Source: Myxococcales bacterium (GTDB lineage: Bacteria; Myxococcota; UBA727; VGSZ01). Taken from it: a stretch of DNA of 64,000 bases. Of this stretch, positions 39,803-50,527 are shown one piece after another. The number at the start of each line of letters is the position of its first letter. Position 1 is the stretch's first letter. Made by a program: the position numbers and the translations under genes. Under the pieces are notes generated by a model. The model was not told where the DNA came from and ran no database searches. It saw only the letters and a program-made list of their open reading frames with translations. Location: the NCBI GenBank assembly GCA_023248635.1, contig JAHFED010000008.1:62001-126000 (forward strand), given 5' to 3'.

Positions 39803-40793
<991 letters not shown>

Positions 40794-47029: not shown

Positions 47030-48076
47030 GTGCGCCCACTGAGCCTGTGGGGCCTCGAGCAGGTTCGCTTGATCCTGCGCGGCGGCTCCGTCGTCGACTG
47101 GTACCGCTTGCGCTTCGAATCCCCCGACGAGGTCCGGGCCTTCCTGGCGCTGCAGGGCGGCGACGTCGACGACCCTGTGGACTTGGCGCGCCTGGACCGA
47201 CTCCGCGCCGCAGCCGCCTGCTATCTGGGTGACGAGCATGGCTACCGCATCCCCGCCGAGCTCTTGACCTGTGGAGCCGTCGATCTCCTTCTCTACGCCT
47301 CGGAAAAGCGCGGACGACGACGGGATCGCTTCTTTGCCTGCTTGCTGCTCAAGGTGATGCACATCGTTCATCACATCGAGGCCCGCGAGCTGCGCTACCG
47401 CCTGCCCCTCTCCCAGGCCGGCATCTTCGATCTCCTCGTCGACAAGGTCGACAGGTTCGCCGACGACCTGCGCGGCGAGGGCTTCCCGCTGGTGCGCTAC
47501 ACGGGTGGCCAGAAGTCGACGACGTCGTTGCTGACCAAGCTCTTGGTGAAAAAAGAGCACCACGCCGCCGCCATTCACGATCGGGTGCGCTTTCGCTTCG
47601 TCGTCGGCGCGCCCATCGACCTCGTGGACCTGCTGGGCCGCATGACCGAGCACCTCTTCCCCTTCAACTATGTCGCTCCCGCGCAGACAGTGAACCAGCT
47701 GATCAATTTCACGGCCTTCGTCGAAAGCCACGCCGCCTACCGCGCCTGCGCCCCTGAGCTGCAACTCGAGCTCGGCCAGGAGGAGCAGTCGCTGCGCCCC
47801 CTCAACGAATTCTCGGGACCCAGCTACGCCGTGATCAACTTCGTCGTCGACATGCCGCTGCGGGTGCCCGAGGAAGTGCTGTTGAAGGTCCCCCACGACG
47901 ACGAAGACCTGGGCCGCGTGGTCTTCGCCCTCGCCGAGTTCCAGTTGGTCGACGAGTTGGCCGACGTGCAAAACGAGCAGGGCGAGAACCGGCACGAGCG
48001 CTACCGCGCGCGCCAGTTGTCCATCGTTCGCGAGCGCCTCGAGCGCGGGAAGCGCTCCGTCAAAGACGATGGCTGA
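47030..48076 (+). CDS. TIGR04552-type protein, possible RelA/SpoT-like nucleotidyltransferase fold
   Basis: This 348-aa protein starts at GTG 47030, 23 nt after the GltJ-like gene. It resembles the Deltaproteobacterial family I recall as TIGR04552. Its central part reads KVMHIVHHIEARELRYRLPL, ..., KVDRFADDL, GGQKSTTSLLTKLLVKKE and HDRVRFRFVVGAPIDLVDLL. The order 'K-S..S...KL..KK....I.D..R.R..V' is like that of RelA/SpoT (p)ppGpp synthetase domains, where these Lys, Ser and Arg residues bind ATP and GTP. A catalytic role is not shown: the second acidic motif is not obvious. No signal peptide or membrane segment. It is probably co-transcribed with the GltJ-like gene. Confidence 0.7.
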   Translation: MRPLSLWGLEQVRLILRGGSVVDWYRLRFESPDEVRAFLALQGGDVDDPVDLARLDRLRAAAACYLGDEHGYRIPAELLTCGAVDLLLYASEKRGRRRDRFFACLLLKVMHIVHHIEARELRYRLPLSQAGIFDLLVDKVDRFADDLRGEGFPLVRYTGGQKSTTSLLTKLLVKKEHHAAAIHDRVRFRFVVGAPIDLVDLLGRMTEHLFPFNYVAPAQTVNQLINFTAFVESHAAYRACAPELQLELGQEEQSLRPLNEFSGPSYAVINFVVDMPLRVPEEVLLKVPHDDEDLGRVVFALAEFQLVDELADVQNEQGENRHERYRARQLSIVRERLERGKRSVKDDG

Positions 48077-48160
48077 GCCGACCCGCCCGGGCCTGATGCC
48101 GCTGCGGCTGGCCTGCGCCGCGCCAACGGCTTAAACCAGGAAGTACGTTGAGCGGTTTGC

Positions 48161-48193
48161 CAAAGAAAAGACCCGCGAGAAAACTCGCGGATC
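48161..48193 (-). terminator. Intrinsic terminator (minus strand)
   Basis: The stem GATCCGCGAG/CTCGCGGGTC (10 pairs with one G-T, loop TTTT) is followed directly by TTTTCTTT on the minus strand. It would end transcripts coming from the GltG-like gene or from the structured region. Confidence 0.75.
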
Positions 48194-48406
48194 TCATCCC
48201 GCGTCCGCTTGATGTTCGACCGCGTTCCGAGATGGGAAAGACGCGGATGATGCGCGTGAAGCGCGCCCGCGGAACGCGGAGTTGGTGGGGCCCCGCGTCC
48301 GGCTCCGCCGGCGCGGGGGGAGGTCTGCACCAGACCTCCCAGAAGAGCATCCCCGACGGCGATGAACGAGACCGCTCCGCGGTCGAAGTTCAGCGAGATC
48401 GGGGAT
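48161..48406 (-). ncRNA. Candidate structured RNA between convergent operons
   Basis: Read on the minus strand, the region contains consecutive stems: ATCCCCGA/TCGGGGAT (48349-48356 with 48399-48406) enclosing GACCGC/GCGGTC (48370-48384); a 10-bp stem GGGAGGTCTG/CAGACCTCCC with a 3-nt loop (48318-48340); a 12-bp stem with one bulge (48291-48318); CCGCG/CGCGG (48267-48279); GCGCG/CGCGC (48252-48266); an 11-bp stem with one bulge (48194-48205 with 48240-48250); and a final 10-bp terminator hairpin. Nearly every base is inside a helix. It may be an independent small RNA or the 3' region of the Glt-like operon. Part of it (48213-48236) looks faintly like 5S rRNA loop C, but the flanking helices do not fit. 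No promoter is identified. Confidence 0.4.
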
Positions 48407-48448
48407 CAGTACACTCATCGCGGAGCTAGCTCACGAATGAGCGGATCG

Positions 48449-50527
48449 TTATCCGCCAGATTGCTTGAACACAAAGGGGTAACTGACGACGACGATGCCG
48501 CCGCCCTTCGGCTTGGGAAAGATCCAGGTCTTGATCTTGGTGGCAAGACAGCTCTCGACGTTGGCGTTGTTCATCTGCGACTCCGTCTTCGCCGACTGCG
48601 TGACTTTGCCTTCGCCGTTGATGATCCACTTCATCATGATTTTCCCATAGATGCCCGGTGTGCGGGTGAGCTCCTTCTCATAGCAGTATTTAATCTGGCT
48701 GGCGTGTTCGCGAACGATGCGTTGAATGATCTCGCGATCGAGCGAGCCAAGAATCACCGGCGTTCCCTGCGTCATCGTCACGTCGCGGTCGGTCTTGTTG
48801 CCGAGTCCGCCTTCGGCGCCGCCGTAGCCTGTCTCGCCGCTGCCGCGGCCGCGCGTGCCGATGCGGCCTGTGCCCAGGGTGCCGATGCCGACGCCGCCGC
48901 CGCCCGGTCCACCCCCGCGCAACCCCAGCCCGCCAGTGCCGTAGCCTGAAGCGACCTTCGCGCCGTCGATGCCTCCCAGGGCTGCTTCGAGGGCGCCGCC
49001 GCTGGCCTCGCCGCCAAAGAGCTGGGCGATGCCTTCGCTGCCTTTGTCGCCGAACAAGGCCGTGAGCTTGCTGGCCACCACCTGCTCGTCGGTGGGTTTG
49101 TCCTTGGCCTTCAGAGCAGCCTTGCCCTGGTCCTTCTTCGGGTCGGCTTTCTTGTCACCCGCCTTGCCCGCGTCTTTGGCCGCAGCGGCCTTCTCCGCCT
49201 TGGGACCTTTGAGGCGCTGCAAAAAAGAGTTGTCCTTCGGCGGCGGCTTCAAGATCAGGGTCTGGAACTTCGTCGGATTGGTGAGGAGGTCGTCGTCGAG
49301 GGAGTCCATGCCGACGGGCATCAGCCCCACCGCCGCCACCATGGCCGACGCCGCAAACAAGGTCACCACCGCGGTGTTGGCCCACAGGATGTCGAAGAAG
49401 GGCAACACGGGCACCAAGCGCGACTTGGGAACGACCCGCACCTGAATGGTGTGGTAGCCGACACCGATCGACACCACGGTGTCGTCGGTGAGAGGCAGGG
49501 CCATGGCGTCGCCGTCGGACTGCGCGCCGGAGGCCGACAGGGGGGCACTGCTGTCGCCGCGGGTCACGTTGCCGCTCATGCCCTCTTGAAAGCGCACCTT
49601 CCATCCGGTGCCCGCTCCCGACGTCAACAGGTTGTAGCTGCTGCCTTCGAGGGGGACGAAGAGCGCGTCCCCCTTCTTCTTGCCGATGGAAAAGGTGCTG
49701 GCGTTCTTGATGCGTTTGACGTCGGTGACGCTCCCGCCCCAACTCAGCGTGACTTCGACATACCGGTTCTCGGGCGTGATCGAGTCCTCGGGAATCGGCG
49801 GCAGCGGGGGCAAGATCGACACCCGTTCCACCGGCGGGCGAGGAGGCGCCGACGTCTTCTTCGCCAGGGCCGCTGCTTTGCGCGCGAGCACTGCCGGAGC
49901 TGAGGGGGGCACCAAGGTGGGCGGCGTCATCGGCGCGGGGCCGGCGACCGGCGGCTGGGGCCCCAGGGAGTTGAGGGCGACGTCGACGCCATCGCTGTTA
50001 AACACGTCGGTGCTGGGGGCAGACGGCGCACCGTTTGGTCCGAGGGTCGCCGACAGCTCTTTGCGCAGGGCGGACACATCGGTCTCGCCCGAGTGAAAGA
50101 CCGCGGCCCCGTTGCTGGCGCCGGGCGGCGGCGGCGGCGGAATGTCGGGGAGTTGGCTGCCGGCGTCGGTGAGCATCGGAGGGGGGGCGACGACGGCGCC
50201 GCCTCCTTTGAGCGCGGCGATTTCGACCTCGTCGAGCACGATCACCAGGCGCGAGTCGCCCAGCCCGATCTCGTCGCCATGCTTGAGGCGAACCCGCGAG
50301 ACCTTCTCGCCATTGACCCGGGTGCCTTCGGCGGATCCCATGTCGATGATGGCTGCTTCTTTGTTGTCGGCGACTTCGATGACGGCGTGGATGCGGCTGA
50401 CCTTTGGATCCTCCAGACGCAGGTGCGCCGAGGCCAGTCGACCTATCTTGATGATGTCGCGCTCGAAGACCTGCGTGTCCACGAGCTCAGTGCCCTTGTG
50501 GATGCGGATTCCGATCGGCCTCGCCAT
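48449..50527 (-). CDS. GltG-like FHA / AgmX-PglI-tail inner-membrane protein
   Basis: This 692-aa protein has an N-terminal FHA domain (RLASAHLRLEDPKVSRIHAV, then AEGTRVNGEKVSRVRLKHGD), which normally binds phosphothreonine peptides. A Pro-rich linker, a second beta-rich stretch (VEVTLSWGGSVTDVKRI) and one membrane helix (NTAVVTLFAASAMVAAVGL, near residues 380-400) follow. After an Ala/Lys-rich coiled region comes a Gly-rich hinge and an AgmX/PglI-type C-terminal domain (IQRIVREHASQIKYCYEKEL, GKIMMKWIINGEGKVTQS, KTWIFPKPKGGG). This architecture is that of Myxococcus GltG/NfsG. The start has GAGGAG 5 nt upstream. It is the last gene of the minus-strand Glt-like set and is followed by the structured region and terminator. 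Confidence 0.85.
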   Translation of the reverse strand: MARPIGIRIHKGTELVDTQVFERDIIKIGRLASAHLRLEDPKVSRIHAVIEVADNKEAAIIDMGSAEGTRVNGEKVSRVRLKHGDEIGLGDSRLVIVLDEVEIAALKGGGAVVAPPPMLTDAGSQLPDIPPPPPPGASNGAAVFHSGETDVSALRKELSATLGPNGAPSAPSTDVFNSDGVDVALNSLGPQPPVAGPAPMTPPTLVPPSAPAVLARKAAALAKKTSAPPRPPVERVSILPPLPPIPEDSITPENRYVEVTLSWGGSVTDVKRIKNASTFSIGKKKGDALFVPLEGSSYNLLTSGAGTGWKVRFQEGMSGNVTRGDSSAPLSASGAQSDGDAMALPLTDDTVVSIGVGYHTIQVRVVPKSRLVPVLPFFDILWANTAVVTLFAASAMVAAVGLMPVGMDSLDDDLLTNPTKFQTLILKPPPKDNSFLQRLKGPKAEKAAAAKDAGKAGDKKADPKKDQGKAALKAKDKPTDEQVVASKLTALFGDKGSEGIAQLFGGEASGGALEAALGGIDGAKVASGYGTGGLGLRGGGPGGGGVGIGTLGTGRIGTRGRGSGETGYGGAEGGLGNKTDRDVTMTQGTPVILGSLDREIIQRIVREHASQIKYCYEKELTRTPGIYGKIMMKWIINGEGKVTQSAKTESQMNNANVESCLATKIKTWIFPKPKGGGIVVVSYPFVFKQSGG

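Follow-up and report, generated by a model that had tools for sequence, protein, structure and literature searches.

A new MITE family with a widely shared structured core at the end of an operon in a Myxococcales genome

The window analysed here, a stretch of 64,000 nucleotides from a Myxococcales genome (G000, 6.53 Mb), carries on its minus strand an operon that ends with the gene of a 692-aa FHA-domain protein (48449–50527; Pfam PF00498, 2.8e-17), whose TAA stop codon lies at 48449–48451. The ORF list places a convergent gene of 348 aa on the plus strand (47030–48076), which gave no Pfam match at E ≤ 0.001. In the gap between these two genes, an earlier note had described dense hairpins that end in an intrinsic terminator, and had proposed a new structured RNA. 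The hairpins are indeed present, as the minus strand of 48161–48406 folds at −136.1 kcal/mol compared to −102.6 ± 5.2 for 200 dinucleotide shuffles (z −6.51, with 0/200 as stable). This excess over shuffled controls, which the note had named as a check, supports its view that the structure goes far beyond a terminator's needs. Likewise, the final hairpin was correctly read as an intrinsic terminator with a T-tract: the terminator scan places it at 48195–48168, with 12 pairs and a T-rich tail, as the sole good terminator-like site (the second listed site overlaps it).

The stretch 48161–48406 turns out to consist of two things joined, namely a 209-bp repeat and, immediately beyond its end, the terminator that belongs to the operon. 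The repeat (48197–48405, minus strand) is a copy of a miniature mobile element (MITE) of a family designated A, situated in the convergent gap, after the TAA of the FHA gene and before the terminator. It is bordered on the minus strand by a TGA on its left (48406–48408) and a TGA on its right (48194–48196). Its left terminal inverted repeat of about 28 nt (48378–48405) doubles as the outer portion of hairpin hp0 (about 48350–48405), and its imperfect right counterpart of similar length (48197–48224) has TTCGACCGCG in common with it. Interior to these ends lies a core (48279–48350) composed of a pyrimidine-rich lead, two hairpins (hp1, 48318–48340, and hp2, 48292–48317) and a C-rich tail, which scores 81.2 bits with covariance model R1. 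The native terminator (48165–48195) lies outside the MITE except for the bordering TGA, and an alignment of 12 copies confirms that it is not part of the repeat. Two sources account for the hairpins: the inverted-repeat ends, which fold, and the core with its two hairpins between them. Folded alone, the element retains a z of −4.78 (0/200 shuffles), and folded as DNA it gives a z of −6.09.

A similarity search of 58 related genomes with the intergenic stretch gave 12 scored matches in its own genome, one being the query itself and the other 11 being further copies, 95–99% identical over about 217–231 bp; the other genomes gave short, weaker matches in three only. Phage and plasmid collections gave no match. 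When the left end was searched in G000 as a pattern of 21 bases with up to three mismatches, and the right end with a pattern of its own, 202 left and 176 right ends were found, while reversed controls gave 0. The 12 aligned copies have sharp ends, TGATCCCC... and ...GCGGGATGA, with unrelated flanks; the imperfect inverted repeats were recognised by inspection, without a statistic. Counting only copies for which both ends were found with at least 60 bp of flank, the bordering bases are equal in 41 of 48 paired A copies (TGA/TGA in 31, TCA/TCA in 7 and TAA/TAA in 3) and lack an equal TNA in the remaining 7, and in a second subfamily, B, 6 of 6 such copies have equal TNA on both sides. Bordering bases that vary together in this way are a 3-bp TNA target-site duplication. 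Nested copies, inserted within the central hairpin of another copy, which is split by TGA/TGA, point to the same duplication. Subfamily B is about 70% identical to A (L094/L122, contig C76 of G000, about 11.6–12.4 kb). Just right of both A copies L014 and L017 lies a similar hairpin-like sequence, GATTTTGTCGGC...GCGCCGAC, perhaps a further small repeat.

The A element is absent behind the orthologues of the FHA gene in two congeners, G001 and G002 (proteins 72% and 71% identical), and in G001 this place holds a plain terminator-like hairpin with a T-tract. The operon therefore received the structure and did not evolve it. This bears directly on the idea of a structured regulatory RNA conserved at this operon, either as its 3′ regulator or as an independent sRNA. 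Such an RNA would fit the strong fold and the terminator at the end of the structure, but around 200 copies elsewhere in the genome and the empty orthologous place in both congeners speak against it, as does the sigma-70-type promoter scan, which found no promoter-like site in 48060–48470. We consider this explanation very improbable, and it is already largely refuted. Consequently, neither of the two roles suggested in the earlier note, as the operon's 3′ regulatory region or as an independent RNA at this locus, is supported, the structure being a dispersed mobile repeat. Its proposal of a new structured RNA finds support in so far as no Rfam family matches, but not in that the structure is not specific to the locus. 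Similarly, the conserved covariation that it had suggested seeking in relatives does exist for the core structure (see below), but not for the element at the orthologous place. With high confidence, we conclude that 48197–48405 is one copy of a high-copy MITE that entered the gap at a TGA, after the stop codon and ahead of the native terminator. Here, the element would be transcribed passively within the 3′ untranslated region of the operon, and transcription would still end at the old terminator behind it. What seemed to be a new RNA when viewed in one genome is a structure-rich mobile repeat, and copy number decides such cases.

How these copies are moved can be approached from the transposase genes of G000. 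A search with the DDE_Tnp_1 model returned only two, both directly adjoining ends of an A element. The better match is an open frame that gives 459 aa when read from the chosen start. Its product belongs to the IS4 family (NCBIfam NF033590, 9.8e-68) and carries a Tn5-like domain for DNA binding (Pfam PF14706, 1e-11); this intact gene comes without a recognisable right end. A small remnant of the same IS4-family transposase lies between left and right B ends (L094/L122). An IS4-family, Tn5-like transposase may thus act on the shared ends and move the copies, and we infer that it also makes the 3-bp duplication. Tn5 itself duplicates 9 bp of its target. The A family differs from it in its 3-bp TNA duplication and in that no intact, autonomous IS copy was seen in G000, while it resembles IS elements of this kind in having a transposase of the same family next to its ends. 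Three other types of mobile element, HEARO/IscB with its omega RNA, IS200/IS605 elements and IS110 elements with a bridge RNA, were considered and dropped on account of the matching TNA duplications, the inverted-repeat ends and the lack of an Rfam match.

Bacterial IS-derived MITEs, such as those of Coxiella (PMC5896051) and MITEAba12 (PMC6382973), are likewise short, non-coding elements with inverted-repeat ends, target duplications, many near-identical copies and, in the case of A putatively, a related IS in the same genome. A stands apart by its approximately 200 copies and by a very structured core that it has in common with MITEs with other ends. The literature searched contained no published description of such MITEs, REPs or repeats in myxobacteria, Myxococcota, Sandaracinaceae or Sorangium. 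A is a new family of a known kind of element, the MITEs, and its structured core is widely shared and undescribed.

Of the 41 A copies bordered by equal TNA, 39 entered the analysis of insertion preferences; one inside a predicted gene and one at a sequence edge were left out. In 19 of these 39, the insertion lies exactly at a stop codon, which the duplication restores; random TNA sites in the same gaps would give 11.2 (P about 2e-4). The excess is real but modest, and at only about 1.7-fold it weakens the notion that the MITE is strongly aimed at stop codons. Convergent gaps hold 23 of the 39 insertions, compared to 6 of 38 gaps in the window's gene map, as expected if the insertions that spare promoters survive. 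A raw count has 36 of 46 A copies oriented with the upstream gene, mostly from convergent gaps; in co-directional gaps the two orientations occur 6 and 5 times, showing no preference.

The weak matches of the A element in other genomes led to the core as a module in its own right: a pyrimidine-rich lead, hp1 (GGAGGGTCTG NNN CAGACCCTCC), hp2 and a CCCC[A/T]CCC tail. In an alignment of 12 sequences from five genomes (A2), 93.9% of cells are paired, and for 11 of the 21 pairs at least one sequence has both partners changed. The covariation score of this alignment, 0.297 compared to 0.099 in shuffles (0/500) and 0.02–0.08 with the partners slid, leans towards the structure that the analyst had named beforehand. 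In a more varied set from more genomes, folding against 60 shuffles per sequence gave a z below −2 for 42 of 48 core sequences, with a mean of −3.5. De novo RNAalifold on these 48 sequences (A4) returned 7 pairs only, of which 4 have both partners changed; a misalignment of hp2 is the probable reason for so few. The covariation in A2 is almost purely Watson–Crick, which is compatible with action of the core as RNA and as DNA, and does not decide between them. Across genomes, it is stronger than a purely passive passenger needs. Intrinsic terminators resemble the core hairpins in being G+C-rich and at gene ends, and a true one lies directly behind the element studied here, but the core hairpins have no T-tract and their primary sequence is conserved.

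With only the best first-look candidates scored, model R1 found the core at E ≤ 1e-3 in 8 of the 58 relatives and in 10 of 195 genomes of the phylum. The exact hp1 pattern occurs in at least 90 stretches of public genomes, and among the matches listed all titles but one name Myxococcota, myxobacterial taxa or Deltaproteobacteria, the exception being a Halomonadaceae MAG (L252) without an R1 hit. R1 was searched in 80 of 90 of these loci and gave 96 hits, of which 84 were carried forward, without the lowest-scoring or cut ones. No Rfam family reached its gathering score in five core-module loci or anywhere in the window; the only matches seen were weak and below threshold. Elsewhere in the window, R1 has a weak match at 40200–40267 on the plus strand (12.5 bits, E 0.37), probably by chance.

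MITEs of at least three types, distinguished by their ends, contain the core. A and B have TCCCCGATC... ends and TNA duplications. Type C of G000 has CAGGGTGCGG... ends and CTAA, CTAG or TTAG duplications, whose two sides agree in 9 of 14 paired copies, and has a core-bearing relative, D, in G001 and G002. The third type, with GTACC... ends, was found in a Sandaracinaceae MAG, SSF7. The order is the same in every type: folded left end, pyrimidine lead, hp1, hp2, tail and right end. As a side observation, C is a second abundant MITE family of G000 (L125–L144, on several contigs), with CTAR-type duplications whose left TAG or TAA is often the stop codon of the upstream gene.

Besides its presence in MITEs, the core also occurs without their ends, placed behind the stop codons of genes in the same direction. 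Leaving aside the copies of G000, G001, G002 and SSF7 and repeats of a locus already counted, such a stop lies −4 to 12 nt before hp1 in 9/12 copies of G003, 6/7 of G005, 7/12 of G032, 3/6 of MED-G138, 3/12 of IP29b, 2/42 of Prado145 and 1/7 of others. Prado145 differs: about 70 nt downstream, a single 17-nt bin takes in the stop codon of an oppositely directed gene for 9 of its 42 copies. At L006 (G003, contig C18, about 19.1 kb), the core sits between two genes that we take by eye to be rpsK and rpoA, the latter, recognised by its N-terminus, following in the same direction, so that it apparently can sit inside an essential operon.

This placing suggests that the core could act at gene ends, either as an RNA structure of 3′ ends or as a REP-like repeat of DNA with its termini next to stop codons. 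In the first case, it would be a 3′-end RNA element of the host (an mRNA stabiliser, or a translation-termination or 3′-end processing signal) that was taken up by MITEs. The spacing from stop to hp1 is exactly 6 nt in 16 copies from G003, G005, MED-G138 and IP29b, and hp1 starts 10–12 nt behind a tRNA gene in three MAGs (tRNA-Ala at L280 and L244, tRNA-Val at L297); together with the covariation and the unchanged order of parts in MITEs whose ends differ, these observations argue for such an element. However, there are few core copies per genome relative to genes, their distribution over the phylum is patchy, placing in Prado145 is random, and the A MITEs show no orientation preference in co-directional gaps. 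Nor is the core a strict terminator, with the next gene at L006 reading in the same direction. We consider a host 3′-end element possible but rather doubtful.

In the second case, the core would be a selfish REP-like DNA repeat of its own, bordering stop codons through the tolerance of gene ends for insertion and only later enclosed by transposon ends. Single genomes hold dozens of similar core copies, in G032 some of them in tandem about 79 bp apart. REPs are said, by Liang et al. in 2015, to lie near stop codons. REPs and GTAG-tagged palindromes (PMC3733652, PMC2817692) are high-copy palindromes at gene ends as seen here, and GTAG REPs are reported often to supply flanking ORFs with their TAG stop codon (PMC3733652). 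A differs by its inverted-repeat ends and TNA duplications, and the core by having two hairpins and a conserved C-rich tail without a GTAG tag, which exceeds the REP length of 20–40 bp (PMC3733652). The Y1/RAYT transposase (PF01797) was absent from G000, G002, G005 and G032, and G001 and G003 gave a single weak hit apiece; its absence from four genomes speaks against a standard REP system. A REP-like origin could nonetheless well apply, if a little short of probable.

What makes the MITE insertion behind the FHA gene of wider interest is that one covarying core is common to MITEs with different ends and also stands alone at a fixed distance behind stops in several genomes. Its uptake by several MITE types may, less certainly, reflect that it does no harm at gene ends or is of use there. 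We tentatively raise, as something that we hold possible rather than probable, that Myxococcota have in this core an undescribed structured element with its own function at gene ends (an RNA 3′-end element or protein-bound DNA hairpins), taken up independently by several unrelated kinds of transposon ends. If true, selfish elements would bring along a 3′ end compatible with the host and would come to rest at stop codons. A core that acts in this way would make it possible to test whether mobile elements carry gene-end signals. In G032, the tandem core copies (L210, L214 and L202) stand two or three in a row, about 79–81 bp apart.
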